Source: Dioscorea cayenensis subsp. rotundata | Lineage: Eukaryota > Streptophyta > Magnoliopsida > Dioscoreales > Dioscoreaceae | Assembly (NCBI RefSeq): GCF_009730915.1 | Contig: NC_052474.1 | Coordinates: forward strand, 1,151,501-1,215,500 | DNA length: 64,000 bases | Reading direction: 5' to 3' | Shown here: one piece after another, positions 3,001-49,272 of the stretch | Position numbering within the stretch: the first letter of the stretch is position 1 | Layout of the letters: each line of letters starts with the position of its first letter | Notes under the pieces: generated by a model | What the model was told of the DNA's origin: nothing | Seen by the model: only the letters and a program-made list of their open reading frames with translations | The model's database searches: none | Translations under genes and position numbers: made by a program

Positions 3001-3438
3001 GAGAAAGCGAAAAGAAGGAAAGGAAGAAGAAGGAAGAGAAGAATTTGGATATTAATTCTCGGGTTGCTACGATAGTCGGGTTGCTTTACGAGTACACTTA
3101 GCATGATCTTGGGTGCTCTGATGTCAGTGCTACTGATGTCGAGACAGAATCAATAGTGTTGGGCTGCAAAACTACAAGAGCAGGCTAGTTTAACTACGAG
3201 TGATGGGTTGCTTACGATGTTTTTATTCTTTTCTAAATTACTCTATTGCCCTCTAACACAAGAATGGAAACAAAATCCAAATGACGAATTTGCCCCTATT
3301 TATGGCGAGATTTTTTCGCACATAATCAAGTCATGCGATCCGGTAAAAATCTATTAATGCAAAAATGACCATTTTACCTAATGCATTCACAAAAAAATAA
3401 GAGAAAAATCCTAGGTCAATTTGAATTTGAGTGCAACA
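1..3438 (-). repeat. LTR of the outer element (3' LTR on minus strand), truncated by window edge
   Basis: Matches 10220-13691 over its whole length. By comparison with the right-hand copy about 0.4 kb lies beyond the window. It contains a GC-rich core near 430-640 that is also recognisable, reversed, in the LTRs of the nested element. No gene is supported here; small open frames are chance. Confidence 0.8.
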
Positions 3439-3718: not shown

Positions 3719-3967
3719 TGTCACGTCCCGAGGCCAGCGGGCCCGCCCGCGTGACAACCGCGCATGACGATCCGAGGAGGGACACACGCACTCAACCTCG
3801 AGTCAGTCATGAGGGCTCACGAAACTCCTGCTAAACAACACGCATGATAATAAAGGTACCAAAAAGCAAAAACTTTTCAGCTCGAAAAATCAATAGTAAA
3901 GTGAAAGATATACAAATCACATTCTAGAGTTAATAACACTAGTGGATCCATCTGCACTTTTCATCTT

Positions 3968-6773
3968 TGTAATACCACAGACCTTTGGATACATTTGGAA
4001 AAATATATTCGAGGGTATTACTTTTAGTTTGCGATGAAGATTTTTTTCTACAGAGTAATCTTGTTGAGAAACCCCAAGTGGAAAGAATAAGGACCTAAGT
4101 GTAAAAGTTTTTAAAAGATTTTGGGTTAAAGAATAAATGAAAAGGATGGATATGAAATGTTTATGGAAACCAAGGACTGAAAGGTAAGATGGAGGGATCT
4201 TTTTGAAATGTTGTGTTATAATCTAGGGACCATTGGATAATTTGAAAGGACCTTTTAAGAATAGTATTTCATAATTCAAGGACCATTTGGGAGTTTTTCA
4301 GAGACTGTTTTGTAAGAAATTATGTTTTCAGGGACTAAAAGTGAATTTCGGCTGAAGAGTTAATTGAGAGAAAAATCTAGGGCTTGTGTTGTTCATCTTC
4401 TTCTCCACCATTTTGCTACAGTAACCCGAGAGTTAAAAAAAAAAAAAATGAAGAAATGAGAGAAATTAGAGGTTTTTAAAGAGAAAAACTTGGAGATCGT
4501 CGGAGGGAGCTCGCCGGAGGGATGACTTGGCTTGGTAAGAGGCTTCCTTGTATTATTTTTGGCATGGATGTATGTATGCATGTATATATATGTATATATT
4601 GGTTATTTGATGAAGAAAATGATAGATTTGAGTAGAAAATAATCATGGTTTTGTTGTTGATGGATGATGAACGCTTGAGTTATTTGGAAAAATCTTAGTA
4701 TTTGAGTTGAAATTGCTTGAAATGGAGGATGAGATTTTTCGGTTTCTCGTAGTAGAATCATCGTGAAAGACCGAGATTAGGGTTTGGTTTAGTTAATTAA
4801 GTTGATTATTACGATGATTAAGGTGTTAATGATGATGGTTGGATTGGAATTGGTTGGGTTTAGCTAGTTGATTTTGGTTGAGTTGGAGCTTGATCAAATC
4901 GAGTTGAAATGGGTTGGGTTTGGTTCGAGTTGATTTTTAGGTTAAGGGTTTTGGATCTGAACCAAGTTGGTTCAATGGATTTTGAATAAGAAATTGAATT
5001 GGTTCAAGTTGGTTCGATGAAATTGAGTTTGGTTCAGTCACGATTAAAGCTTGGTTCGAGGGAATTAAGATTGGTTGCATTGGTTTAGTCGTGTTTAGTC
5101 TAAACCGAGTTGGTTTAAATACAACCCGAAAGCCAATTGGACTATGCGAGGTCGGGTTTTTAACCGATTGGAGTGAGTGGGCCCATAGAGAGTTGATTAT
5201 TATTTTTCGTATTTTCTTTTGAGTTTAAATATGTTATTTATTTTTTTATTATATTATTCTATTAGGTGTTGTTCAGTTTTGGAAGGGAGTTCCGGGGTCT
5301 AGCAAAAAACCCAGGAGACCAGGGGTGAGTTGGTAGTGGCTATTATTTTAAATAAATAAATTATTATTATTATTTTGAAATAATTGTTTAATGGCTAGTA
5401 TTTTTGGAAATAAATGTTTAAGTATTTCATTTTTATCATGTTTAATTGCAGTATAAGGTCGAAATATACTTATATTTATTTTCCTACTGATGTGCCATGA
5501 TAACCGTATTGATACATCAGTTTTGTATAATTATACGATGTTGTGAATAGTGAAAAATACATGTATATGTGATTTAATTATTCAATTCTTGTATTTATTT
5601 TTGATGGGTATATATGCTTTGATTTGGAGTGATCTTGGAAAACCATGTGAGCATATTAAAAGATGTTTTATCGGCGATTGTTAGTAGAATTGGTTTTCAT
5701 TCCTGGTATAGGAATGGTATCGTGGATCCGGGCTTTACTCGGCATTATGCATTGTTATACTTTTTGGCATCGGCTTTGTGGAAAAATAATGTTTATTTCC
5801 GTGATGTGAATACTTGTCCCGGAAAAGGATCCCGTGTTATGATTTATACTGATGGTATTATTACGTATTTACTTGATGGCTTTTTATGGTGACGGGCTAG
5901 GCCCGACTCATGCGATGAGTGGGTCCCCACGGGCCGACCTTTAGAGGTGGCGTGGTGGACTCGGGTGTTGATTACTACGAGGGCCGGTTCGGTGGGAGTG
6001 CAGAGCCACTGATCGGATATTCATCGGGTGGCCAGGGGTCGCGACCGGGTGAACCGGATGGGTCAACGTTAGGGACATGAGTTCCTTGACGGCTCACGAA
6101 CCTGCCCAGCGGCCACGGCGAAGGTTTAGAGAGTTTTTCTAGACCATGTTATCTTTGGGTGAGTGTTGGGTATTGCTTTATTTTTGAATTTGAGATTTAT
6201 GTTATATTTTTTTGAATTGTGATGAGACCGGACTCTCACAAAAATTTGTGTTTTCTGAGAAAATCAAATTGATGTTGATTTATGTTGAATTTATGTTTCA
6301 AGAGTTCTTTAAGAATTGTATTTTGCTAGAATTCGGTATTTTTGGAAAAAGTTGGAAAATTATTTGAGCAGGTTTGGTATTTATATACTTCATATACATT
6401 AGTATTTAAGTATTTAAAATTATTAAGCTCACTACCGACCAACCGAATGTGTCAGAGTCTGCAGGAGAAGGACCCTAGATTGCTCGTCGACTATAGTGCT
6501 AGTCGAGGTTGAGTCCAAGATTGCAGCTGTGTCCCATATCTTTCTTTCTATTTATTGTTGTTGTGATCTTAGTAGCGGTTGTACCCTGCAAATTTGAGTT
6601 ATTAGTATTCATGGTATTTATGTATTTGAACCCTCGTAGTTGGTGTGAAGTTGTAAAAATGTGATTTAGTAAGTTTGATTTGGTTTTTGAGAGGCGTCGG
6701 GTTTCCAGGTTAAAAGGGATTTTTAAGCGATGGGTGCCACATTTACCCTCGGTGGAAGGGGTGGAGTGTGACA
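3968..6773 (+). repeat. 5' LTR of the nested element
   Basis: 2.8-kb LTR, duplicated at 7281-10052. It includes a GGTT-rich low-complexity stretch (about 4840-5130), an AT-rich stretch and a GC-rich core (about 5880-6130). Confidence 0.82.
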
Positions 6774-7280
6774 TCTTTTTAGTATCGAGTAGTAGGGTTG
6801 AGATATCCGGGTTTGGTAGAGATCACGGGTTGTGATCCGAGCTTAAGTTTAGAAGTCGTGTCTAGACTTGGAGAGTTAGTAGTGATTAGACATAAAGTTA
6901 AGGGCCCAATGAAGTATTTAGAGTCTCCAATCGGGTTAAAACCTAAGTTGCATATTGGGATTGAGGGACCGATAGTTGATTTTGACATTTGAGACAAAAG
7001 AGCTGAGTAGTGATCTTGTGATCAGGATCATGGGTTGAGATATTTGACGGAATTGTTTTTTTATCCAAAAATGAGTTGACTTGAAGATGCCAGAAAAGTG
7101 TGTTTGGCATGTTGTTTGTTGAGTCGATACATAGTGATTCTGCGAGTGTGATTATTTACTATCGAAGCGGATTTGTAGCAAGAGAAAGCGAGGTCTTGGA
7201 ACAAGTAAAAGCGAGTCGGTGATATCGATTAATGTATGCTAAGAAATTTCGAGGACGAAATTTTCTTAAGGGGGAAGAAT
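6774..7280 (+). other. Interior of the nested LTR element
   Basis: 507 bp between primer site and polypurine tract. It has only short open frames without recognisable domains. Confidence 0.7.
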
Positions 7281-10052
7281 TGTAATACCCTGAACCTTTG
7301 GATACCTGTTGGAAAATATATTCAGGTATTACTTTTTAGTTGCAGATGAAGATTTTTTTCTCGAGAGTAATCTTGTTGAGAAACCCCAAGTGGAAAGAAT
7401 AAGGACCCTAAGTGTAAAAGTTTTTAAAAGATTTTGGGTTAAAAGAATAAATGAAAAAGGATGGATATGAAATGTTTATGCAAACCAAGGACCTGAAAAG
7501 GTAAGATGGAGGATCTTTTTGAAATGTTGTGTTATAATCTAGGGACCATTGGATAATTTGAAAGGACCTTTTAAGAATAGTATTTCATAATTCAAGGACC
7601 ATTTGGGAGTTTTTCGAGATCGCTTTTAGTAAGAAATTATGTTTTCAGGGGACTAAAAAGTGAATTTCGGCTGAAGAGAGTTAATCGAGAGAAAAATCTA
7701 GGGCTTGTGTTGTTCATCTTCTTCTCCACCATTTTCTTTACTGATGAACTCGAGAGTTAATGAAGAAATGAGAGAAATTAGAGGTTTTTAAAAGAGAAAA
7801 AACTTGGAGATCGTCGGAGGGAGCTCACGTAGGAGGATGACTTGAGCTTGGTAAGAGGCTTCCTTGTATTATTTTTAGCATGGATGTATGTATGCATGTA
7901 TATATATGTATATATTGGTTATTTGATGAAGAAAAATGATAGATTTGAGTAGAAATAATCGTGGTTTTGTTGTTGATGGATGATGAATGCTTGAAGTTAT
8001 TTGGAAAAATCTTGTATTTGAGTTGAAATTGCTTGAAATGGAGGATGAGATTTTCGGTTTCTTGTAGCAAAATCTTTATGCATGCAGAGATTAGGGTTTG
8101 GTTTAGTTAATTAAGTTGATTATTACGATGATTAAGGTGTTAATGATGATGGTTGGATTGGAATTGGTTGGGTTTAGCCAAGTTGATTTGGTTGAGTTGG
8201 GGCTCGATCAAATCAAGTTGAAATGGAGTTGGGTTTGGTTCGGGTTGATTTTTAGGTTAAGGGTTTTGGGCTGAACCAAGTTGGTTCAATGGATTTTTGA
8301 ATAAGAATTGAATTGGTTGCCTGGTTCGAGTGAAATTGAGTTTGGTTCAGGTCATGATTAAGCTTGGTTCGGGGAATTAAGATTGGTTCGATTGGTTTAG
8401 CTGTGTTTAGTCTAAGCGAGTTGGTTTAAATACAGCCCGAAAAGCCAATTGGACTATGCGAGGTCGGGTTTTAGCAGATTGGGTGAGTGGGCTGATAGAG
8501 TTGATTATTATTTTTGTATTTTTCTTTTGAGTTTAAATATGTTATTTATTTTTATTATATTATTCTAGTTAGGTGTTGTTCAGTCTTGGAAGGGAGTTCA
8601 GGGTCTAGTGAGAAACCCAAGGAGACCAGGAGTGAGTTGGTAGTGTCTATTATTTTAAATAAATAAATTATTATTATTATTTTGAAATAATTGTTTAATG
8701 GCTAGTATTTTTGGAAATAAATGTTTAAGTATTTCATTTTTATCATGTTTAATTACGTATAAGGTCGAAATATACTTATATTTATTTTCCTACTGATGTG
8801 CCATGATAACAGTATTGATACATCGGTTTTGTATAATTATACGTGATTTGTGAATAGTGAAAAATACATGTATATGTGATTTAATTATTCAATTCTTGTA
8901 TTTATTTTTGATGGGTATATATGCTTTGATTTGGAGTGATTTGCGAAACCATGTGAGCATATTAAAAGATGTTTTATCGGCGATTGTTAGTAGAATTGGT
9001 TTTCATTCACGGTATAGGAATGGTATCGTGGATCCAGGGCTTTCTTGGCATTATCGATTGTTATACTTTTGGCGTTGGCTTTGTGGAAAAATAATGTTTA
9101 TTTCAGTGATGTGAATACTTGTCCCGGAAAAGGATCACGTGTTATGATTTATACTGAGATGGTATTATTCTTTGTATTTACTTGATGGCTTTTATGGTGA
9201 CGGGCTAAGGCGGCCACTCTGCGATGAGTGGGTCCCCACGGGCCGAGCCTTTAGAGGTGGCGTGGTGGACCCAGGTGTTGATTACTACGAGGGCCGGTTC
9301 GGTGGGAGTGCAGAGCCACGCTGGATATTCATCGAGTAGCCGGGGTCACCGGCCGGTGAGCAGATGGGTCGGCGATGAGGACATGAGTTCATCGGCTACG
9401 AACCTAGCCAGCTGACCCGGCGAAGGTTTAGAGAGTTTTCTGAACCATGTTATCTTTGGGTGAGTGTTGGGTATTGCTTTATTTTGAATTTGAGATTTAT
9501 GTTATATTTTTGAATTGTGATGAGACCAGACTCTCACAAAATTTGTGTTTTCTGAGAAAATCAAATTGATGTTGATTTATGTTGAATTTATGTTTCAAGA
9601 GTTCTTTAAGAATTGTATTTTGCTAGAATTCTGGTATTTTGGAAAAGTTGGAAAATTATTTGAGCAGTTGGTATTTATATACTTCATATACATTGTATTT
9701 AAGTATTTAAAATTATTAAGCCACTACCGACCAACTGAATGTGCTGTAGCTGCAGGAGAAGGACCCTAGATTGCCTGTTCGACTATAGTGCTAGTCAGGT
9801 TGAGTCCAAGATTGCAGTGTGTCCCATATCTTTCTTTCTATTTATTGTTGTTGTGATCTTGTAGCGGTTGTACCCGCAAATTTGAGTTATTGTATTCATG
9901 GTATTTATGTATTTGAACCTGTAGTTGGTGTGAAGTTGTAAAATGTGATTTGTAAGTTTGATTTGGTTTTTGAGAGGCGTCAGTTTCCAGTTAAAAGGGA
10001 TTTTTAACTGATGGGTGCCACATTTACCTCGGTGGAAGGGGTGAGTGTGACA
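7281..10052 (+). repeat. 3' LTR of the nested element
   Basis: Direct copy of 3968-6773, starting TGTAATACCC right after the polypurine tract. Compared with the first copy, AT-rich stretches match almost perfectly, while homopolymer runs and C/G-rich spots differ. Confidence 0.82.
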
Positions 10053-13000
10053 CATACAATGCAACCTGATTAAGAGTAAACAAACAACCTGACTCGGGAT
10101 ACAAATTGCCAAGCACTTCGCCTCGCTATGACGACCAAAACCACTAAAAACACGGAAGAGAGGAGGGGTGAGTAACCATAGTCACTCGGTGAATGGGTTA
10201 GCACAAATCTAACAGAATATCAAAAACAAATCGAGGAAATTCCAATAAACACATTCTACGATAACATAAATGAGCTGGAGCGTTCACATTTGCAACATAA
10301 TGAAAAATACGAGGGATATGAAACCTTGGTATTTAGAAACCAAAAACATAAATTCTCACGAGTATAGACAAAACATCAACATGTATAAAAACAAATGCTT
10401 GGATATAATTTCCCAAAAATAAGTAGAAGAACCAACTTAAATAAATAAAATCCTCGATAATCACAAATCCTCAATTACGCATGATACATGTTCGAAAAAG
10501 CATTAAGATATCAAACATGTTATGTGAAAGATCACACTTGAATATACGATTGCAAGAAAAATAGAAATTTTCCTCAAATATTGAAATTTCATCTCGATCA
10601 AATAAACAATGGCCTAAAAAAACACTCTCTCTAACTTTAGCAGCCGTCACGACTAAGTTGAGAGCCGTCAAGGTCTTCGCACCCTTGGCGTTGGCCCACC
10701 AGTCCCGTATGGTGACCCGGGATCGATGTATCATCAATCGGGGCTCTACGCTCCCACGATGCGGACAAATCAACACCCAGGTCCACAGCGCCACCTCTAA
10801 AGGCGGCCCGTTGGGACCCACTACTGCGATGAGTCGGGGCCTTAGCCCGCCGTCACCATCAAACCAACATATAGTCTGTAGCAATAATACAATCCCGAAT
10901 CACTCATGTCACAAGGTCCTTATTCGGGACAAGCATTCACATATCGGGAATAAACATTATTTCCACAAATCCAAAAGCCAAAAGCATAGTAATGCATGTA
11001 AACTTTCAAAAAAAGTATTCCAATCCCGATGTGCCCGATACATTCAAAAAAACATTTACGTCCAAATGCCAAGAATAACACAATAATATCGCGAAGCTAC
11101 GAAGCATTGCTTTGAGACAATAAAACCGGTCGATATTAAGCGCATTATAATATCCACAATCTAGAAGAACATGCCATTCGGAAATAAAAAAACCCTTTTT
11201 GTTTTTCATAACCATAAATATCAAAAAGCATGCTTATACAAGTGAAAGGTTTTACAAACCATTTCTAAAAGTTGATGCCAACGAGTGTAGAAAAAGAAAC
11301 ATTAAGTTTTTGAAATACAATAAAAGGCATCAAAAACAAGCATAACTTTTGTTCTAGTTAAACCTCAAGTTACTTAGGATCATTCTAGCTTTCTCTTTCT
11401 TGACTCACTAAGTTTTTCCTCCAAATACAAGATTAATCCCCAAGGTCTAGTCTATCACAACCTCTAAATACTTTACAAGTCATGAAAAATATGTTCATCT
11501 CATCACATATATTTACACCTACCAATATACATTGATTAAATCCTACTTTACACATCATTAGGTATTTACTTTCACAAGCCTTTACTATTCGAGCCTCTCT
11601 TATACTCAACAATGTCTTAGATCCTTATCATAGTGCCACTACCTCAACATTAATATTTACTTCATCTATAATAATTTCATTGTCAAAAATACTCACAAGT
11701 TGACTATCTCCTCTAAGGATGTATTAAATCAAACTATTATTAAAAAAATTCACGGGAATATTCGGGTCTTTGCAATTCAACACTTGTCACATATATAGCT
11801 CAAGCTATTCATCATCAACCTTCTAAATAAATTCCATTTAGAATAATAATCATAATCATTGGCATCCACCCGATATATATATATATATATACATATGTAT
11901 ATCCCGATATGATCAAACTACAATTAAGCACCCTACACTATGCTCACAAGAACAAACCTCATCAATTTGTGAGAATCCTACTACATAAGTGTAATTATGT
12001 CACCCATGGTTCTCGAGATATTACAAAGAATATATTAGCATAAATCTCACTGACTAGCCAAAAATCATATATAAGGTTCCACAAGTTATTCCAATTCCAA
12101 TATACTAGTGTAGTCATATACCTTAGCATTCAAGACTTCATCGGGTTCCATGTACCATGTTTATCACATCATGCCTCAAAACTTCAGAAATTATGCATCA
12201 TTAGGGAGATTAAATCATCCATTGAACATACATAATCAATTTTACTTATAACCCATAAGCTCCATGAACTTGTTGTAATAATCGGCAATTTCCATTCATC
12301 CACCAAGCATGTATATCCTCAAGTTCAATCTCAACTAGCATAAGTACAACATTAACAAGCTTTCTCATGATTTTTTTCGGAGAGTAAACCACAAGTCATT
12401 TTAAATAAACCATAGTCTCTAGTAGTCATCTACACTTTCTTTTCTCCTATAGCCGTTGATTTGAAAAACATGATAAAAGCCATGGAAATCATTTCGAGAA
12501 AAAAACAAATAAAATATTTTTCGATACTCAATTAGAATTGTGCACTCAACATAACCCACTCACGAGAACATGTTGCCTCGCGTGGAGGCAGCACTGCTGA
12601 TGAGCGGTTTCCTTCCCCTTGGAGGATGCTTCGCCACCTAGATACAAGCGAGGGAATCCAAATACTAATGAACACAAGAATGATCGCTAAAAGAAAAATG
12701 CATGCAAATGCATTTATACATGTCTATCTGAAACCTTAGGGGTTTTTAGGGCAAAAACATTGTCATTTTGGACCCAAAGCGACCTCGGAATGAAGTAAAC
12801 CTAGTTCCAATAAGTTCAATGAATGAAAAAGCTTCAATTTGGATCAAAGAAATACAATAAAAAGGCCAAAGTTTTTCCGATTGCTACGATAACATCGGGA
12901 ATGCTACGAGTAAAAACCGAACCTTACAAATGGTTTTCTCTCATTTTACAACATCAAAGCGATGAAATTTTGACACAATTCTCATGAATAACAATTGACA

Positions 13001-13691
13001 ACATCAAGGGCTTCATTTTAAGCCCAAAAAAACTTCCACAAATCATGAAAAAAATCTAGGGTTTTTGGTCTAGGGTTTATAAATAATGAATACAATGAAA
13101 AATCTGGAAGAAATACATACTAAAAAAACTCGGATAAAAGGCTCTTACCTTACTCAAGAGGATGTGGGGAGTAAATTTTTTTGGTGTTGGTTCGCGGGAA
13201 TTGGTCACGGAAATAGTTAGGGATTTTTTTTTAAGGGTTCAGCCGGCATGGAGAAGCAAAGAAGGAGAAGGAAAGAAGAAGGAAGAGAAGAATTTGGATA
13301 TTAATTCTCGGGTTGCTACGATGTCGGGTTGCTACGGTACACTTCACGATCTTGAGGTGCACTCTGATGTCAGTGCTACGAGTGTCGAGACGAGAATCAA
13401 TAGTGTTGGGTTTGCAAAAACTACGAGGGAGCAGAGCTAGTTTAACTACGATAATGGGTTGCTACAATGTTTTTTTATTCTTTTCTAAATTACTCTATTG
13501 CCCTCTAACACAAGAATGGAAACAAAAATCCAAATGACCGAATTGCCCCTATTTATGGCGGAATTTTTCGCACATAATCAAGCTGTGCAATCCGGTAAAA
13601 AAATCTATTAATGCAAAAATGACCATTTTACCCTAATGCATTCACAAAAATAAGAGAAAATCCTAGGTCCAAATTTGGACTGGGTACAACA

Positions 13692-29045: not shown

Positions 29046-29582
29046 ATGGCCGGCTACGGGGCCAAGCTCCGCCCGGCGGCCACCGCGATCCTCTCGCGCG
29101 CCCGCTCCACCGGCAAAGCCATAACCAGATTTGCCCGCCCCCGCTCCTTCTCCGTGCCCTCCGATGCCGACGCCGGCGCCATCCGCACCGTCCGCAACCT
29201 CATCCATTTCCGCCACTACTACATCGTCTTCCTCTACATCATCCTCCTCTCAAGCCTCATCCCTCGCCGCCACGCTGCCATGCTCTGTCTCATGGCCACC
29301 AGCAAGGTCGCCGCGTCCTACGTTGCGTTGTTGAAGGCTTTCCCCAACTCGCCGGTGCTGCGGTTCGTGGACCAGCGGATCGTGATGGTGTTGTTCTTGA
29401 TGGTGATTGTAGTGCAGATGGTGATCACGAGAGCGGCGAAACACTTGATGATCTCAATGGCAGTCGGAATCCCGATCGTGTTGGCTCATGCTGTGTTCCG
29501 TGCCCGCGATGATCTCGCCGGCGAGGAGGCGGAGCCGATCGCTGATAAGAAGGATGTTGATCTTGAATCGCAGCCCGAGTGA
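29046..29582 (+). CDS. PRA1 family protein (prenylated Rab acceptor), single exon
   Basis: 178 aa with no intron. The N-terminal 45 residues are basic and polar. The PRA1-like core follows from about residue 47 (TVRNLIHFRHYYIVFLYIIL), with hydrophobic segments at about 57-73, 80-100 and 112-148 in the double-hairpin layout of PRA1 proteins, and an acidic tail (EEAEPIADKKDVDLESQPE). PRA1 proteins sit in ER, Golgi and endosomal membranes, bind prenylated Rab GTPases and help vesicle traffic. The coding part is GC-rich at its 5' end, a common gradient in plant genes. The start is the first ATG after the site II cluster. It is short and diverged, so the subfamily is not assigned; a different small multipass protein is possible. 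Confidence 0.72.
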   Translation: MAGYGAKLRPAATAILSRARSTGKAITRFARPRSFSVPSDADAGAIRTVRNLIHFRHYYIVFLYIILLSSLIPRRHAAMLCLMATSKVAASYVALLKAFPNSPVLRFVDQRIVMVLFLMVIVVQMVITRAAKHLMISMAVGIPIVLAHAVFRARDDLAGEEAEPIADKKDVDLESQPE

Positions 29583-31459: not shown

Positions 31460-32100
31460 ATAACCATGAAAAAAAAAATCATTTCAAATATGCATCCCAT
31501 GATACCACCACTACCACCACCACTTCACATATATGTCAATAAAAAAACAAATAAGACTTTGGATGGTATACGAACGGATTAGTCCACACTGCAGAAACAG
31601 GATTTCATAAATCCGGGATTTAAAAAGCAGAACAAAACATGAGGAAAAATAAACCATCTGCCCAAAAAAAAAATGCAGCAGTATAGTTGAAAAGAAATTA
31701 TTAATTAGCTGTGCAGTTATATTTAGGTGGAATGAAAATATATCACGGGTTTGTGGCAGATATTCTAATCATGAAAATTGATAAATTATAACCATAGATC
31801 TACAGAGAAAGAAATTAAGAAAAAGAGAAGAGTTTTCAATTAACGTGGTACTAATAATGTCCTTGTGATCCATCTCCCTTCTTTTATGTACATCTACTCC
31901 CTTCTTTTGTACAGAGACTCAAAAATATAAAATTTATAACAGCAAAAAAAAAAACTAAACCATCAATAATTATAGTAGAAGTAACACATACATAAACAAA
32001 CCCTTTATTTATTTAACTAATCACTTACAACTCTCCCTTCCATACCAATACCATACATATAATAACAAAAGCCAAACCTACGTATACATGCACTTGGTTA
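31460..32100. other. Spacer and likely 3' region of the glycine-rich protein gene
   Basis: AT-rich, with a TA run just left of the coding end (about 32103-32126). No gene seen. Confidence 0.45.
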
Positions 32101-32131
32101 TATAATATATATATATATATATATATACATT

Positions 32132-32761
32132 TCACTTTTTACCACCTCCCTTCTTCCCCAAATTCTTTCTACTTCCTGGATATCCATATCCACCTTCATA
32201 CCCACTTCCTTGATTTCCATATTCACCACCTGGATTTCCATATCCTCCACCAGAACCTCCATATCCCCCACCATAACCTGGATATCCATATCCAGCACCA
32301 GAACCTGGATATCCATATCCACTGCCAGAACCCTCAAATTCAGGAGCTGGATATCCATATCCACCACCAAAACCAGAACCACCACCTTGTCCAGTTCCAA
32401 ACCCAAAACCACCTCCCTGATCTCCACTACCACCACCACCACCACCAGACCCAGAACCAGACCCAAAAGATGAACCAGAACCACTCCCAAACCCAAACCC
32501 ATGTCCACTTCCACCTGGTGACTCTCCAGATCCAGACCCATATCCCCATCCACTTCCAGGACCTGCTCCCCATCCCCAGTTATACTCCCACTCACCATTT
32601 CCACTCTTCCCAGATCCATGCCCTCCATGGATATCCTCATCCGGTGCTTCAGCCTTGTTGGCTGACACTCCTGAGAAGAGGATATCATCTTGCATGGCAA
32701 TTAGTAACAGCAATAGCATCAGCAGCAGCAGAGTCACTAGGCCTGAACCTTGTTTTTTCAT
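32132..32761 (-). CDS. Secreted glycine-rich (cell-wall type) protein
   Basis: 209 aa, single exon, start at 32761. Residues 1-33 are a signal peptide with a long leucine core (VTLLLLMLLLLLIAM). A short linker with EAPDEDIHGGHG follows, then a Gly-rich body. The first half is rich in GSG and GFG; the second half is repeats of the type GYGYPG and GGYGNPG (about residues 130-195). The tail is basic (RKNLGKKGGGKK). Such proteins are exported, and Tyr-bearing repeats can be cross-linked in the wall; the exact role is unknown. A TATATATA element lies about 50 bp upstream (32807-32816). The second long open frame on this strand (32098-32700) is an out-of-frame shadow of the repeats. Confidence 0.82.
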   Translation of the reverse strand: MKKQGSGLVTLLLLMLLLLLIAMQDDILFSGVSANKAEAPDEDIHGGHGSGKSGNGEWEYNWGWGAGPGSGWGYGSGSGESPGGSGHGFGFGSGSGSSFGSGSGSGGGGGGSGDQGGGFGFGTGQGGGSGFGGGYGYPAPEFEGSGSGYGYPGSGAGYGYPGYGGGYGGSGGGYGNPGGEYGNQGSGYEGGYGYPGSRKNLGKKGGGKK

Positions 32762-34692: not shown

Positions 34693-35670
34693 AAAATAAA
34701 GATCGGGTTTTTCCATCCTTAGTTGTTATTAGAGTATGTTTAATTAATCCTATTTAATTTTGGAACCAGTGAATAATGAAAATAAAATGGACAAGTTATT
34801 ATCTTTGATACAAATTTAGTAAACTATGTAAAGACGCTAATCTCACTAATAAATAGTTAATGCTTACTCTTCTGCATCAAGATTAACTTCTATACTTCGC
34901 TGAGAGAAGCCCCAGCCAAAGACCAATAGAAAGTTAACATAATATCTCATCCATTAAAAATCAAGTTATCATATTATGCTTAAAAATGATTAACATATCA
35001 TTTCTAAATAGTTAAAACAACAAAACCCCCAAATCAACATTCTTTTCAAGCTAACTTTGCTCTAGCTCAATGATAGATAAGCTATCTTAATTTAAAAACC
35101 AGCACTTTAAACAATACATATGTATATATATCCTCAATTTCTTAAGAACATTTTACATATAACTGGGATACAAAATCATCTGTTTTTACTGATCATGTCC
35201 ACTAATCTTGGATTCAATGACAAATGAAATGCCAAGTTTTTAAAAGACAAAAATGCTGGTATGACTTTAACACAGACAATTTGATAATAATCAGAAAATT
35301 ACAGTAACAATGAGAAAATCAATATCTACAACAGTAACAAGATCAGCATAGTTAATTTTATTAATAGGTACAAATTATCCCACAAAAAATTCATTATAAA
35401 TTCTCAATATACTTCTTTTTATGGTGCCTGATTTGCATTTTGGTATTATTCATGTAAAAACTCAATATATTCCTTTTTGATTAATTTTCGTCAATCAACC
35501 TCAACTCATTCGAAGGTTTTACAATGTGTTCGATGCAATGTCCTTTAAAAAATGCTTTTTTTTAAAAAAAAAGACGATGCTTGAATTCAGTGCAGTTCTG
35601 ATCCACAAAAGACAAATCAAACTAAAAAACTAAGAAAAAAAATTGAAAAACTGGAGAAGATTTGCAAGCA
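34693..35670. other. AT-rich spacer downstream of the snoRNA cluster
   Basis: No gene. On the minus strand this is where the snoRNA precursor would end; T-rich stretches occur at about 35560-35650. Confidence 0.4.
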
Positions 35671-35685
35671 GTTTCATCATCATCA

Positions 35686-35783
35686 TCATCAGAGTAGAAA
35701 TGATTTTTCTCATCCACCGCCAGGTGGAATTCTGACGGTGTAGGAAGGTGTCCTAAGATTTCATTTCTAATCTCATCATCTGA
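35686..35783 (-). ncRNA. Box C/D snoRNA candidate C (25S rRNA guide)
   Basis: Minus strand: C box ATGATGA (35773-35779) and D box CTGA (35689-35692), about 91 nt apart, with tcag/ctga pairing at the ends. An internal 15-nt segment (35745-35759) is exactly complementary to AAGGTGTCCTAAGAT, a conserved 25S rRNA sequence (continuing GAGCTCAACG in plants). The adjoining D' box is degenerate (CTAC). A duplex of this length is unlikely by chance. Confidence 0.72.
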
Positions 35784-35859
35784 TCACCATTCAATACCTA
35801 ATAAAAATGATTTTTTTTTCAAAAAAAAAAGAAAGAAAGAAAAAAGAAAGCAAAAACTC

Positions 35860-35944
35860 AGACTCAGAAGACATTTAAGAATAGATGCATCAATGTGCTT
35901 CAGTCCAAGTGTTGGATAATATTCTTTGAACTTCATCATCATCT
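35860..35944 (-). ncRNA. Box C/D snoRNA candidate B (25S rRNA 2'-O-methylation guide)
   Basis: Minus strand: C box ATGATGA (35933-35939), D' box CTGA (35900-35903), C'-like TTGATGC, D box CTGA (35864-35867); about 76 nt from C to D, with short tcag/ctga pairing outside. The segment before D' is complementary over 13 nt (35905-35917) to CCAAGTGTTGGAT of 25S rRNA, recalled as part of AATTCACCAAGTGTTGGATT. It would guide fibrillarin-dependent ribose methylation in the nucleolus. Confidence 0.75.
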
Positions 35945-36000
35945 GATGAACTTCCAGCAAATGAAAATAAAGAAACAAAATCAAAAATCAAAATGAAAAA

Positions 36001-36114
36001 GGAGAGATCGATGCTCAGTGTTGGCGATTGTTAATTGGTTCGATTCATGCCAGCGAGCGTCCTCACAATTCAATCAGAAGAGGGAGCTCTTTTATCCTCA
36101 TCGCATCACTCTCC
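36001..36114 (-). ncRNA. Box C/D snoRNA candidate A (possible 18S rRNA guide)
   Basis: On the minus strand a 6-bp terminal stem ggagag/ctctcc (36109-36114 with 36001-36006) encloses a C-like box (gtgatgcgatga), a D' box CTGA (36074-36077) and a D box CTGA (36015-36018). The 9 nt before D' (36079-36087) are complementary to AGAGGGAGC, part of the conserved 18S rRNA stretch GGAGAGGGAGCCTGAG. Box C is imperfect and 9 bp is a short duplex, so this is the weakest of the three. Confidence 0.5.
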
Positions 36115-36347
36115 AAATCAATCAAAACTCGGATAAAAAAGAAATAAACACAAGAAAACTATCGATCCAAAACCCATACCCTAATTCTTAGTTGAAATGG
36201 AGGAGATCGCTCAGTTCAGCGGGGTTGTCGACATGCAAAGCTCTTGCTCCAATGGAGAAAAGACCTGCAATCCGGTCTGTTGAGCTTGAATTTTCGAAGT
36301 CTTCATAGCGATCGATCACCCCTGATGTGAGACATGCAAGACAATAG

Positions 36348-36373
36348 AAACCCTAACCCTAACCCTAACCCTA
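36348..36373 (-). promoter_or_regulatory. Telomere-like tract / telo-box of the snoRNA locus
   Basis: aaaccctaaccctaacccta on the plus strand includes the telo-box AAACCCTAA. It sits about 70-95 bp downstream of the TATA box, in the early transcribed region, as in many plant translation-apparatus and snoRNA genes. The unit is TTAGGG-like (6 bp), not the common plant TTTAGGG. Confidence 0.6.
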
Positions 36374-36440
36374 GTTCTCCGTCGAGATTTTCTAAGAAGC
36401 CATGAACGGCGCCAATGAACGAAGAAAGAGTAGTGCTGGG

Positions 36441-36448
36441 TATTTATA
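36441..36448 (-). promoter_or_regulatory. TATA box of the snoRNA locus
   Basis: TATAAATA on the minus strand in a clean context (ccctataaataccc). Confidence 0.6.
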
Positions 36449-38420
36449 GGGACGAAAGCGGGTTGTTAGGGTTTTGCTAGTAATCGGGTTTGGTATTAAC
36501 GGGTTGAGGACTTTGATATCGGGTCGGATTCTATGCTATTCGGATGCTACCTCACCATCCGAATCCAACTGCCTTATTGGATCGGGTTTTATTATTCAAA
36601 TTGAAGGTTTTACGTGAAACTATTACGATCTATATTATTTGATCTGCTGCAATTTTAATACTTATGTTTGAAATAAAAACTTATTACTTTCGTAAGCTAT
36701 TTAGTAAAGATTTTAACCTCCTATGTACGATATCTGGTGTTGTTAATGTATAAAATTTAAATCTCGGCTCACACATGATAGAAATACAAATAATTTAAAA
36801 TATTAATCAATTGTTTATGTACTTTCCATCAAATAAAATTTTGTCAAATATTGAACCTCAGCTAAAAAACATGAATTACATGAATCTAATTTGAAGTACA
36901 TATGTCCTAATATATTTTTATATAAATCTTATAATGTTATCAACAAGATTATTTAAATTTTATGATTTTATGTTTATTTTAGTTAAAGCTCTATCTATAA
37001 TCCCCGTACTGTTCATACAATGTTTACCCCGGGATTCCTATATTATTCTCATACTATACATATATTGTATATCCGGGTTTTAGTACTGTTTTAGTACTGT
37101 TTCTATTCATAAAAAAAGGCGCTTGTCATCTATTATTCCAAAAAAAAAAGCTCTATCCATAAATTAGTTTTTCTTAAAAAAAAAAAAACATAGACTTAGA
37201 TTTTTTTGTATGAACAATCAATTCATTATTATAATTATTTAACAATATAGACATCCATGCCTCCTTAAAATACATATATAATTTTTATTATTATATCTTA
37301 ACTGTATATTGAAATAAATAAATTAATCAAGTGTTTTAACCATTGAGTTATTGCTATAGTGACATATATTATTATTATTAACAAAAAATTTCATCCTTGT
37401 TCCAATGTTTTGAATGAAAAAAGAATATTAGGAGTAATGTTAATATTTCTGGTTTTATATTATGTGTTTTCCTCATACGGGGAATGTGGGGATGTAGACA
37501 TAAAAATCAACTTGTGATGGATAAAATTTGTACATCCACGCTCCATCAAACTCACATCATTCTCAATCATTAATGATAGCATTTTCAAAGTGCATATATT
37601 TTTATTAGAAAAACAAATAATAATTGTATTTCAGTCCATGGATAAAAACTCTCTTCATTGAGTCAATAATTATACATACATATTCCGTAAAAACGATGAT
37701 TTTTCTTAACTAAACTGTTATTATCATCTTCTATTTTTGAAGATTTATTTTACTTTATAATTTTTTTGACTCACCTTGGGTAAAAACTTTCTAGTTTTCT
37801 CTTTCCTTTATTTGTTCAAATTGTATCATTATTTTCGTTATGATTTATCTATTTTAATTTTAAAAAAAAACACCCGACAAATACACAACATACAAAAAAA
37901 AAAAAAACTCTAATCACCTTTGTAACAATAGAGGTGATATTTCATTTATTTTTATATTCATGAGTTAAAAATTTATTTTACAATTTATTTATAGTAAAAA
38001 ACTTAATTGTTAGAAGAAAACAAAACTAACAAATTCATTTATAATTGTTAACTTAAGTTGAGAGTTCTTGAGAGCTAATCTTATGCCAGTAGAGTTAGAT
38101 TTTTTAAGAACTATGTCTAATATGGTTTTTTATAATTTTTAAAAGTATAATTAGTTTCGTTTTTGTTTTCTTTATTTTTATTTCCTCCTAGTAATAATTT
38201 GAGAATCGGTAAAACTTGACAATTATCAGAATATATCACCAAATAATTTAATATAAATTCCACCAAAATAAGATCGAAATCAGTGCGGTAGTGACTTAAA
38301 ACGCATTTCCGGAAGAAAGCAGGTACTTAATTGCATAAAAACGAGGGACTAATCACTAAATTCAAACCTTTTCAGGGGGTCAGATAAAAAAACTTCACTC
38401 TTTTGGTGGATTCCCAAAAT
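36449..38420. other. AT-rich spacer between the snoRNA locus and ORANGE
   Basis: No gene. It holds a small retroposed insertion at 37001-37146, described separately. Confidence 0.5.
37001..37146 (+). mobile_element. Short poly(A)-ended retroposed insertion with target duplication
   Basis: Flanked by aaagctctatctataa (36985-37000) and aaagctctatccataa (37147-37162), 15 of 16 identical. The inserted 146 bp ends in an A-run, so it looks like a SINE-sized product of LINE machinery. No A or B box is clear and it is unrelated to the other SINE family here. Confidence 0.6.
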
Positions 38421-42774: not shown

Positions 42775-43200
42775 TTTCTTAAACAGAAAGCTCATTTTTA
42801 AACAGAGAACTCATTTCTTAAACGAGTTTTTTCTAAAGAGAGTTCATTTCTTAAATGTAAAACCTCATTTCTTAAACAAAAAAACTCATTTTCTTAAACG
42901 AAAACCCTCATTTTTTTAAACATAAAACTCATTTTTTTAAACAAAAAAACATTAATATTTAAACGAAAAAACAAATATTTACGTGATAAATTAATCCCTG
43001 GATATAAAAACCAATTAATCTTGGCCACTCGTACATATTTCAAAAAGAAACAACGATATTTAAGCACTTTTTAAACGTAAACGCAATATATTAAACATAA
43101 ACATCGATAGTTAAACAAAGACAAACAAGCATATAAAGCAGAGAACTCATTTCTTAAAGCAGAGCTTATTTTTTTAAACAGAGACCTCATTTTTAAGCGA
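42775..43200. repeat. Degenerate array of about 20-bp 'CTCATTTCTTAAACAGAG' repeats
   Basis: Many units of 'actcatttcttaaacagag' type with variable spacing. Smaller blocks recur at about 43800-43880 and 44540-44780, always inside the MULE-like element. There are no unique spacers or cas context, so it is not a CRISPR array. Confidence 0.65.
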
Positions 43201-44370
43201 AAACCTCGTTGAGTAGGGGACGTTGGTATCTCATCGTCGCCGATCTCGAGCGACGCTGAGTGCCGAGCTCCGGATCTGCCGAGCGATCTCGAAGGTGCAC
43301 TGCTCGTGTGGGGTCTTAAAGGAGAAATCTTTTATCGGCGTTGGCGATCCGGTTGAGCGGCGTTCCTCGGCGGTCGGAGTGGTGAGGTCTTCGGTGGCTG
43401 ACGTCGGATAAGACGAGTCGAACTTGAGCGGAACCATTCTCGATTGCGGAGATCGCAACATGGATAGCAATAGGGTTAGGGGTTAGGGATCATTCCGGGG
43501 TTTCGGATCCATGGTGCCTAAGTCGGTGACGGAGCGGAGGGAGGAAGCGGCTGACGAGTGAGGTTCGATCTCGCCGTCTTCGTCTTCATCGTCTTCCCCG
43601 TCAGTCGAGCCTCGTCTCTTTCATTTTTCTTAGCTCGCCGACCTCGGGAAGACCGCGATGCTCCCTCGTCGTCGAGCGAGGCATCGAAAGGTTGCACTCG
43701 TACGTATTTAAATAGAAACAACGATATTTAAGCACTTTTTTTAAACGTAAAACGCAATATATTAAAGCGAGAAACATAGATAGTTAAACAAAGACAAACA
43801 AGCATATAAACGAGAGAACTCATTTCTTAAAAAGCAGAGCTTATTTTTTTAAAGCAGAGACCTCATTTTTAAGCGTAAACCTCATTGAGTAGGGACATTA
43901 AGTATCTCATCGTCATCGATCTCGCATAACGTTTGAGTCTCGAGCTCCGGATCTGCGGCGATTTCGAGGTGGCTCTGCTCGTGTGGGGTCTTAAAGGAGA
44001 AATCTTTGTCGGCGTTAGCGATCCGGTTGGTGAGCGTTCCTCGGCGGTCGTGAGTGGTGAGGTCTTCGGTGAGCGGCGTCGGGATAAGAAGCAGTCGAAT
44101 CGAACGGAACCATTCTCGATCGCGGAGACCGCATACATGGATAGCAATAGGGTTAGGGTTGAGGGATCATTCAGGGGTTTTGGATCCATGGTGCCTAAGT
44201 CGGTGATAGGAACGGAGGGAGGAAGCGGCGCCGATGAGTGTTCGATCTCGCCGTCTTCGTCTTCATCGTCTTCCCCGTCGTCGACCCTCATCTCTTTCAT
44301 CTTCTTACGTCGTCGACCTCGGGGAAGACCGCATGCTCCTCGTCGTCGAGCAGAGGCATCGAAGGTTGCG
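43028..44370. repeat. Tandem duplication, two copies of a unit of about 671 bp
   Basis: Copy 1 is 43028-43698 and copy 2 is 43699 to about 44370. Both start 'cgtac-tatttmaa' and share the 'aagcatataaa' array end, 'gagctccggatctgc', 'gtgtggggtcttaaaggaga' and 'gatccggttg'. Minus-strand frames such as 43869-44387 contain an acidic stretch (VDDGEDDEDEDGEIEH) and look like captured exon sequence. Frames differ between copies, so this is not called a gene. Confidence 0.75.
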
Positions 44371-45312: not shown

Positions 45313-48300
45313 ATGGCGGAAGCCCCCACTGGAGACTTCCCGCCGGCCTACTCGCCTCCGCCATCGGAGGTTCCTTTCACTCCCCCGGAGATCGAGGATG
45401 AAGGTGTCGCCGCTGAGGAGGAAGCGTTTGGCGAGCACGCAACTGAAGAGGAAGCTCCTGCGGAGGCGTCTCCAGATCTCACCTCGACCTTGGAGGAAGG
45501 ACCGGTGAAAGTTAAGTGGCCTGGTTGGCCTGGGGATAATGTGTTCCGGCTGATCATTCCGGTGGCGAAGGTTGGATGTATCATTGGGCGCAAAGGCGAG
45601 CTCGTCAAGAAGATCTGCGAGGAGACCCGCGCCTCTGTCCGTGTTCTTGATGGCCCCGTTGGCATTTCTGATCGTATCGTGAGCTCCCCTTACTTCAACT
45701 CCTTAATTTCATGGCCTTTCTTTTCTAGGGCTTCTTGATATGATTTTGTTTTTATGAATCCATGAGGTTTTGTTGAATTATTTGTGCCATGAAGTCCACC
45801 TACCTATCAAAAAATTCTGACAATTTTGTTATACTTGGCTATTGTATTCTTGTATGGATTACTCTTCTTCAGAATGTGTGCAAGTCTAAATTGAAAATAT
45901 TTATGACCGTATGCAAGTTCAAAACCAAATAAGTGCGTCAACAAATGATTTGGAGGATTGACCCATAATTCAAGATAGTTAATTCTATTACTTTCTATGA
46001 TCGATGCATTTATAATCTATTGAGGTTGTCTAGGAGGTCCTCTGGAGTACTATTTCGTGCATCATTTTCTTGGTTAGATGAAGTTCATCAAGTCTAGCCA
46101 ATGATCTTTTTTGACACGCATTTTTCTTCTTTGTTTTCGGGTTGACTGTGTAAGCATAGCTGCTGGTTTTCTTTCTTGTGCAGATTAGAATAGATAGATT
46201 TCAAAATTTAAAGAAAGAAGGCAAATTGAATGACCTTAATGTTCACAAATCTTTCATTACATGCGTTGTTGATGATTGTAGTCTTGTGTTGCTTACATGG
46301 ATGAGCTTTGTCTCCTGATATGAGATTTTGTTTGTGTTATGTTTATAAGAATTCGACGACTTGGATGTAAGGTAGGTACCAAGGCACTGCAAATATTAAA
46401 CCTGTGGCAGTTAGGAAACCTTAATTGCTAGTTTTTATCAATGCATACGGCATACCTTCTTATATAAAATCTGACTGTGCCATGCCTTCATTAAACATGT
46501 TTTACATGAAAACCTTTTGTATTTTTAGGTGCTAGTTAGTGGAAAAGAAGAACCAGATCTAGAAGTTTCTCCAGCAATGAATGCTGTCCTTCGAGTCTTT
46601 AACCGCATCCATGATACAGTGGAAAATGCTATCGATACATCAGATGAAACATCTACTGCCATTTCTTCTATTCGATTATTGGTGCCATCATCACAAGCCT
46701 TTAGTTTGATTGGCAAGCAAGGGAGCTTGATTAAGTCAATTCAGGAAAATTCAGGTGCCTCTGTACGAGTGTTACCGAGAGGTATGTGCTTGAAGCTAAC
46801 TCTCCTAGTTGAACACTTAACTCTGAATTTCAGCATCATGAGAAAAAGGCTGGTTTATTTCTGGCTATCTACAAGTTGCTTCCTGCTTTATGAAAAAAGG
46901 TTTCCGTACTGTGTAATGAGCTACTTAACAAAACCATGCCCTACTCCTGAAATTAAGCTGTCTTGTTTTGGTGTGTCATTGAGATTTTAATTATTGGAGG
47001 CATGACACATTAGATTGCATAGTTGTGAAAAGGCTTCTTTTCATGAGGAAATATTTACTTAATGATTTTACTTTAAATAATATATTATGTGATTTAGCTT
47101 TATTGCTTTATTGACCTCTTCTGTTTGTGGTTATTAGAGAAAAACTCTCATTATCGGTAAATGAGAACCCTCATATATATTATAACCAACTTAAAGTCTA
47201 ATGGTAACACACCCATAAACAGAGGCCTGGTGAATACCTCTTGCTCCTCTTGGAATAAAAAATCTGCATGGAGCAGTATTCTAAGGCCTATAAGCAGGAA
47301 CTGTTTTGATTTGAGTTTGTTTCTGAAACATCCCTTCTGATATTCATGAATATTTTAGAAACTTTTAATGATACCACCTCACATGCTACTTTTCTTTATC
47401 AGATGTACTACCACTTTATGCAGCTGCCGATGAAAAGGTTGTAGATATACATGGTGAATTTTTAAAGGTTCATACCGCTCTTGAAGCGGTAGTTGGACAT
47501 TTGCGAAAATTTTTGGTTGATCATGGTGTGCTCCCCCTATTTGAAAAAAATGTATGTATGTATGCCCTCTATTTGGCTTCTGCTGTTCGTTTCTATGAAC
47601 TTGTGATGTTATTCAATCTCTTCTCCCTATGCTTGTCTTCCCCTGATGTGCAGTTGAAGATGCAGCTGAGCCAAGATCATCCGGTGGACACATGGGGCGA
47701 TAAAACACAGTCCTCGGGCTACAGTATTCAGCAAACAATGATGGGTGATGATTATCCTGCTCCAATGAAGCGGGCTTCTTTATTTATTGATCATGATTCT
47801 CATTTGGAATCACAAATTTCACGTAGTTCTTTGTCATTATATGGTCCAGAACCTGCTGTTTCTGGATTACGTTCTCCTGGACTTGGCCGTGCTCCTGCTG
47901 CAATAATCAGTCAGGTTCTCTATGTTAAAAATTATTTGTATTTAAATTGTTTGTTTCATATGATTACTTGATGCTTTGTACTATTTGTTGTATTTTTAAG
48001 TATTTTGTCTGGATGGTTGTACAGAGTTATGCAAGAAATTCCATGATAGACAAATTGATTGTTTGGATTATTTAGGATGCTAGCAATTGTATCACAGCAA
48101 TGGTGGATAAGTGATAAATAGCATGTATGATTCTTGAGTGAAGATATTGGATCAAGATTTTCATTAGAATCTTTAATTTGAAGTCTTGAGTGTAAGGATT
48201 ATTGTTGAGGTATTGGTAAGAATGTTTAATTTATAACATCTTTTGCAATTAATCTTGATGAAATCATTTGCCCATACTCAGCATTCCCATTCTGACACCC

Positions 48301-49272
48301 TTGCTTAGTGAAGGACAAATGGCTTTTGTTTAAATATCTTTTAAAGCTTCCGTCCATCTGAAACTTTAGCTTAGGCTTGTTAGATCAGTTAAAGTCATTG
48401 CAGTTTACTGATCATTCAATGTATCATGGGTGCAGAACTAGTGATAGAAAAGTACTGGTCTGTTAGCCTTGGTTAACTAATGAGTGCTTCTTGAAACAAG
48501 AGTCCTCTCATTTGAGAATTTTCATTTGTTTTGGAACTCATTAGAGCTGGGCCAATATACCCGATTGAAAATTCTCACCTTTTCTTTTATTCTGTGTGAA
48601 CTATTTGTCATATTTAAACTCTATCCTTGGTGTATTTCTTCCTATTGATGATATGCAAAATGATGCTTTAGTTTTATCATATGGAGCCTTATCTATATTC
48701 TGAGAACTTTTGCATTAAACTATTATATTTACTTATTTTGTTTTGAATTCTCATTTGTCTAATTTTGGTATGATTTTATGTTTTCCCATGTTCGATATAT
48801 TTTGGTTGCAGATGACAAAAAAAATGCAGATTCCACTTCTGTATGCTGAAGCCATTATTGGTATTGAAGGGAAAAGGATTTCATACATACGTCGAGCTAG
48901 TGGAGCAGAGCTCACAATAAGGGAGAGCATTACCTCTTCGGATGAGATAACAGTTGAGATCAAGGGCACTTCTCAAGAGGTTCAGGCAGCTGAACTGCTC
49001 ATTCAGGTAATAATCTCACAAAGTGCCCACCACCACCACCACCACCACCACCACCACCACCACAATCACCTCCTCTCTTTCAGATATATGATTTCCTGTT
49101 TTATGTACTGTAGGAATTTATTTCGGGCTACAGAGAACCAGAGCCTGGTCGTTATCTTGATGCAGGCCCAAGAACATACGCTCAGATGCCAAGTTCTGGC
49201 TACTATCCATCTCAACCATATGGTAGATATGAGTCGTCTGATGTAGGAGGATATCACAATTACAGGTTCTAA
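45313..49272 (+). CDS. RNA-binding protein with three KH domains (PEPPER/FLK-like)
   Basis: Six exons: 45313-45678, 46529-46781, 47403-47551, 47654-47914, 48812-49006, 49114-49272; 460 aa. An acidic, Pro/Glu-rich N-terminus (1-70) precedes KH1 (about 77-150, loop GRKG at 92-95), KH2 (about 168-245, loop GKQG at 184-187), a Ser/Pro-rich linker, KH3 (about 348-410, loop GIEG at 360-363) and a Tyr/Pro-rich tail (GYYPSQPYGRYESS). The layout matches plant PEPPER and FLK, nuclear KH proteins that tune splicing and polyadenylation of flowering regulators (FLC and others). All intron phases close. A CAC microsatellite sits in the last intron. Orthology within the KH family is not settled. Confidence 0.9.
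49027..49064 (+). repeat. (CAC)n microsatellite in the last KH-gene intron
   Basis: About 12 tandem CAC units just after the donor site of exon 5 (49006). Confidence 0.85.

Follow-up and report, generated by a model that had tools for sequence, protein, structure and literature searches.

A tandem cluster of four box C/D snoRNAs behind a TATA box and telo-box in Dioscorea cayenensis subsp. rotundata

Introduction

Of 40 non-intronic small nucleolar RNA (snoRNA) loci in Arabidopsis, 37 have upstream telo-boxes according to PMC3022908, which associates site II or TEF1 elements with 34 of the same 40 loci, and PMC4660826 describes the same telo-box/site II promoter type. Here we describe a locus of Dioscorea cayenensis subsp. 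rotundata that resembles the polycistronic plant snoRNA genes of RNA polymerase II (Pol II) in these two sources in its telo-box, its TATA box, and its tandem snoRNAs on one strand. It lies in a 64-kb stretch of contig NC_052474.1 (assembly GCF_009730915.1, positions 1,151,501 to 1,215,500), referred to below as the window, whose minus strand carries four box C/D snoRNAs in tandem, as judged from Rfam matches and boxes. We number these RNAs 1 to 4 from the promoter side, and all of their features lie on the minus strand. We hold with high confidence that the locus is a plant snoRNA gene of the polycistronic, non-intronic kind, with transcription of its own. The cluster is real and worth annotating, but it is an ordinary plant-type box C/D snoRNA cluster.

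Results and Discussion

The family matches carry this conclusion. In a search of the whole window against Rfam, snoRNA 1 (36205-36313) matched RF00360 with 93 bits against a gathering threshold of 50 (E 3.1e-19), and snoRNA 2 (36011-36111) matched RF00046 with 75.3 bits against a threshold of 60 (E 3.8e-15). These two E-values are decisive for snoRNAs 1 and 2. A search with relaxed settings over 1.5 kb, which returned 19 rows up to E 5 including weaker and mostly overlapping matches, assigned snoRNA 3 (35858-35945) to RF01288, snoR31, with 43.0 bits against a threshold of 44 (E 1.4e-5), and snoRNA 4 (35682-35787) to RF00353 with 38.3 bits against 45 (E 0.0014). When the relaxed search was extended to the whole window, the E-values were 0.00059 for snoRNA 3 and 0.062 for snoRNA 4, and no family beyond these four appeared with E up to 0.2. 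Because the gathering thresholds are not reached, we do not file snoRNAs 3 and 4 as formal members of RF01288 and RF00353; they are probable relatives, snoR31-like and SnoR10-like by target and context. The first-pass annotation of this region had proposed a minus-strand row of three box C/D RNAs with a TATA box and telo-box of their own. Rfam matches and promoter motifs support such a cluster, including its tandem order and its strand, but the RNAs number four, and the last ends near 35682, outside the proposed start at 35686. The RNAs also resemble described plant families, and since snoRNAs 1 and 2 exceed their gathering thresholds, annotation with Rfam would recover these two at the least. 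No duplicate of the cluster was found within the window, where the only other match is a 27-bp stretch at 35548-35572. This stretch, which follows the cluster, and one preceding snoRNA 4 (35803-35829) are similar oligo-T/oligo-A sequences (27 bp, 89% identity, E 0.009), possibly precursor-processing hairpins or low complexity.

The RNAs were also examined for a C box (RUGAUGA) and a D box (CUGA) close to their ends. Both boxes are kept in all four RNAs, and the C box is exactly ATGATGA in snoRNAs 3 and 4; in snoRNA 3 it lies at 35933-35939, followed by a CTGA D' box at 35900-35903 and the D box at 35864-35867. The longest terminal stems beside the boxes measure 6, 6, 6, and 4 bp for snoRNAs 1 to 4, as the best of a few offsets with G-U pairs allowed and no shuffle control, so that the stem of 4 bp is weak; the stem of snoRNA 3 is absent from its minimum-energy fold. 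Folding energy does not mark snoRNAs 1 to 3, as 76, 110, and 27 of 200 shuffles, respectively, fold equally well or better. SnoRNA 4, folded as 35676-35793, reaches -37.7 kcal/mol (z -4.16), which none of 200 shuffles equals. In its fold, a hairpin separates D' from C', and an outer helix pairs the stretch before the guide with the stretch before the D box.

For the guides, we used as large subunit (LSU) rRNA reference the Rfam eukaryotic consensus (890 nt) printed beside a eukaryotic rRNA contaminant, L001, in a bacterial metagenome-assembled genome, which Rfam assigns to LSU_rRNA_eukarya. Its numbering was tied to Arabidopsis through the methylated sites that PMC8053127 lists in its Table 1. 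A single offset per region fitted 13 of 13 sites in 2282-2422, five of five in 2620-2683, five of five in 2736-2837, and 10 of 10 in 2880-2960; a fifth region (2430-2600), with two sites, had no unique placement. The target sites tested here also belong to the calibration set, but the next best offsets in the four regions fit only 6, 4, 3, and 5 sites, so the scale does not depend on the tested sites.

On this scale, position N5 of the guides in snoRNAs 1, 3, and 4 falls on sites that are methylated in Arabidopsis. The D' guide of snoRNA 1 (36277-36289) pairs over 13 nt with N5 on 25S G2410, and its D guide (36216-36224) pairs over 9 nt with N5 on G2392. The D' guide of snoRNA 3 (35905-35917) pairs over 11 nt with N5 on A2912, and that of snoRNA 4 (35746-35759) over 12 nt with N5 on U2651. 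With provisional plant rRNA stretches in place of database records, the runs measure 13 nt in snoRNA 1, 13 nt in snoRNA 3, and 14 nt in snoRNA 4. Outside the guides, LSU runs of 10 nt occur in snoRNA 1, of 9 and 8 nt in snoRNA 2, and of 9 nt each in snoRNAs 3 and 4. The D' guide of snoRNA 2 (36078-36087) has no Watson-Crick run to the LSU consensus and therefore fits an 18S target; it forms 11 pairs, one of them G-U, with a provisional 18S stretch, at a position that is uncalibrated. The first-pass annotation had expected 25S complementarities of 13 and 15 nt and an 18S complementarity of 9 nt. Matches longer than 8 nt did emerge upstream of D and D' boxes, including one of 13 nt, but none of 15 nt; the 18S match holds at snoRNA 2 for the provisional letters, at the length given above.

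The Arabidopsis counterparts follow from these sites. Table 1 of PMC8053127 assigns 25S G2392, G2410, and U2411 to SnoR29, U2651 and G2652 to SnoR10, A2912 to SnoR31, and 18S G392 to Arabidopsis SnoR30, and the same paper reports reduced methylation at their own targets in mutants of SnoR29.2 and SnoR10.1. SnoRNA 1 is like SnoR29 in both of its guides, and we equate RF00360 with SnoR29 because the target sites are shared, a comparison made by target site. Plant snoRNA names track homology only partly, as stated in PMC5122169. Fluorescence in situ hybridization places snoR29 in the nucleolus in results given in PMC7464842. SnoRNA 2 is like SnoR30/RF00046 in its family score and in the 18S complementarity of its D' guide; for 25S U803, the text of PMC8053127 names SnoR30 and its Table 1 SnoR14. 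SnoRNA 3 is like SnoR31/RF01288 in its D' guide on A2912 and falls 1 bit short of the family threshold. For A31 of the U2 snRNA, also a target of SnoR31, snoRNA 3 offers fewer than eight Watson-Crick pairs to provisional U2 letters. SnoRNA 4 is like SnoR10 in its guide on U2651, the target by which we equate RF00353 with SnoR10, and is unlike the RF00353 model in its longer insert between D' and C'.

The length of complementarity to rRNA is by itself a weaker argument than it may appear. In 2000 dinucleotide shuffles of the 632-bp segment, 276 reached a run of 11 nt, 70 reached 12, and 18 reached 13; the window as a whole holds 24 Watson-Crick runs of at least 11 nt to the LSU consensus on both strands, three of them inside the cluster. 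Because of these counts, the length of complementarity is by itself only moderately unusual, and the earlier view that exact matches of this length are hard to obtain by chance was overstated. Three runs of at least 11 nt were found in a single one of the 2000 shuffles, and the sole 13-nt LSU run of the window sits in the cluster. Placement was assessed at the 390 CTGA boxes of the window, of which 16 have a guide of at least 8 nt beginning at N1-N3 and including N5. With relaxed boxes (8846), nine of 283 guides fall on a mapped site, and three of these, of 13, 12, and 9 nt, lie in the cluster. The decision is carried by the family scores, with which guide placement agrees.

Upstream of the RNAs, two promoter elements were found. 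The TATA box, TATAAATA, spans 36441-36448; a telo-box, AAACCCTAA, lies further upstream at 36466-36474, with the telo-box motif taken as AAACCCTA and its permutations after a definition in PMC3022908. Overlapping matches to the telo motif number 37 on both strands of the window, six of them within 36348-36474. The position of the TATA box outweighs the motif itself, since TATAAATA occurs 20 times on both strands of the window. Between the TATA box and snoRNA 1, in the presumed 5' leader, a 6-bp telomere-like unit, TTAGGG, is repeated 4.2 times (36349-36373), unlike the usual TTTAGGG units of plant telomeres. TTAGGG telomeres occur in many Asparagales, and the leader array might be a lineage hint or chance. 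That the order SnoR29-SnoR30-SnoR31-SnoR10, a telo-box without site II, and a TTAGGG leader together form an undescribed arrangement, perhaps confined to a lineage, in which one transcript guides several 25S sites from 2392 to 2912, seems to us unlikely.

Several observations weigh against an intact gene of the known type. SnoRNAs 3 and 4 fall slightly under Rfam gathering, by 1 and 6.7 bits. The C boxes of snoRNAs 1 and 2 are one base off ATGATGA, and the putative D' boxes of snoRNAs 1 (CGGA, 36271-36274) and 4 (CCTA, 35741-35744) are degenerate. The cluster is unlike the described Pol II genes in that site II (TGGGCY) is absent from either strand of the 1 kb upstream (36314-37313), with none listed for 36000-37400, and that TEF1 is absent from the transcribed strand of the same 1 kb; such an absence is uncommon, given the 34 of 40 Arabidopsis loci reported in PMC3022908 to have one, yet it does not exclude such a gene. 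With the cut at N1-N3, only one of the 16 CTGA guides, that of snoRNA 1, falls on a mapped site; with N1-N4, a widening chosen after seeing that N1-N3 missed snoRNA 3, two of 22 do, both in the cluster. Relaxed boxes also put six guides from the rest of the window, 8-9 nt long, on mapped sites. Targets were scored against a consensus of eukaryotes at large and provisional plant letters, which are other than the rRNA of this species, and PMC2780460 sets Arabidopsis snoR29 beside another site, Neurospora Um2840.

The low scores of snoRNAs 3 and 4, the two degenerate D' boxes, and the missing site II would also suit a pseudogene, a copy of the cluster that was duplicated or is decaying while the functional one resides at another genomic locus, and plant snoRNA families often have paralogues, clustered and genome-wide, as described in PMC5122169. 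Decay is nevertheless hard to reconcile with C and D boxes in all four RNAs, closing stems of 4-6 bp, guides of snoRNAs 1, 3, and 4 that match mapped sites, scores of snoRNAs 1 and 2 well over threshold, and a kept TATA box and telo-box. We therefore consider a pseudogene very unlikely.

Slightly less probable again is that the snoRNAs lie within an intron of a protein gene. Such loci are known in plants (31 of 109 in rice, as counted in PMC3022908), and our search for open reading frames (ORFs) covered those of at least 110 aa. The TATA box and telo-box directly upstream speak for a separate unit, as do the distances to the closest ORFs of this size on the minus strand. Downstream, such an ORF lies 2.9 kb away at 32132-32761; it overlaps the ORF 32098-32688, is glycine-rich, has no Pfam match, and carries TATATATA immediately upstream. 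Upstream, the nearest is 7.4 kb away at 43869-44300. We rate an independent Pol II unit as more likely than an intronic location. That CTGA/TGATGA motifs and short rRNA complementarity came together by chance is close to negligible: 21 of the 24 LSU-consensus runs of at least 11 nt do lie outside the cluster, but the whole-window E-values of 3.1e-19 and 3.8e-15 already refute it for snoRNAs 1 and 2, three such runs arose in one of 2000 shuffles, and for snoRNA 4, with its whole-window E of 0.062, the guide and the cluster context make the counter-case.

Three further candidates were rejected. A fifth snoRNA at 35585-35697, RF01226-like with 27.8 bits against a gathering threshold of 60, has no LSU run of at least 8 nt, and 198 of 200 shuffles fold equally well or better. 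For a sno-miRNA dicistron, the most stable 120-nt window between 35000 and 36460 (step 10) has -38.8 kcal/mol, against a background of 533 windows with a 5% quantile of -33.6 and a 1% quantile of -42.5 kcal/mol; because this most stable window is snoRNA 4 itself, we claim no separate miRNA hairpin. As for a tRNA-snoRNA dicistron, ARAGORN gives no tRNA in the window.

Elsewhere in the window, there are direct duplications of 3-3423 with 10223-13677 (94%) and of 3967-6773 with 7280-10052 (92%), as well as a tandemly duplicated segment of about 0.67 kb within 43026-44369 (88% identity). Two KH-domain ORFs on the plus strand (45313-45738 and 48770-49246) are perhaps exons of one gene for an RNA-binding protein, and a PRA1-family ORF lies at 29046-29582.

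Conclusions

Drawing on what is generally known of plant snoRNA genes, we can propose how the locus would be transcribed, processed, assembled with proteins, and put to use in methylation in this plant. Pol II would initiate shortly below the TATA box under the telo-box promoter and produce one precursor carrying all four box C/D snoRNAs, from which nucleases would release the individual RNAs at their short terminal stems. Once free, the RNAs would assemble with fibrillarin-type C/D proteins and may direct 2'-O-methylation of 25S G2392, G2410, U2651, and A2912 (Arabidopsis numbering), probably also of the neighbouring U2411 and G2652 and, in 18S rRNA, probably of G392. The cluster changes no concept; it exemplifies a gene that protein-centred annotation would skip, and it adds a locus for four guide RNAs, of which no fewer than three have targets among the rRNA sites methylated in Arabidopsis.
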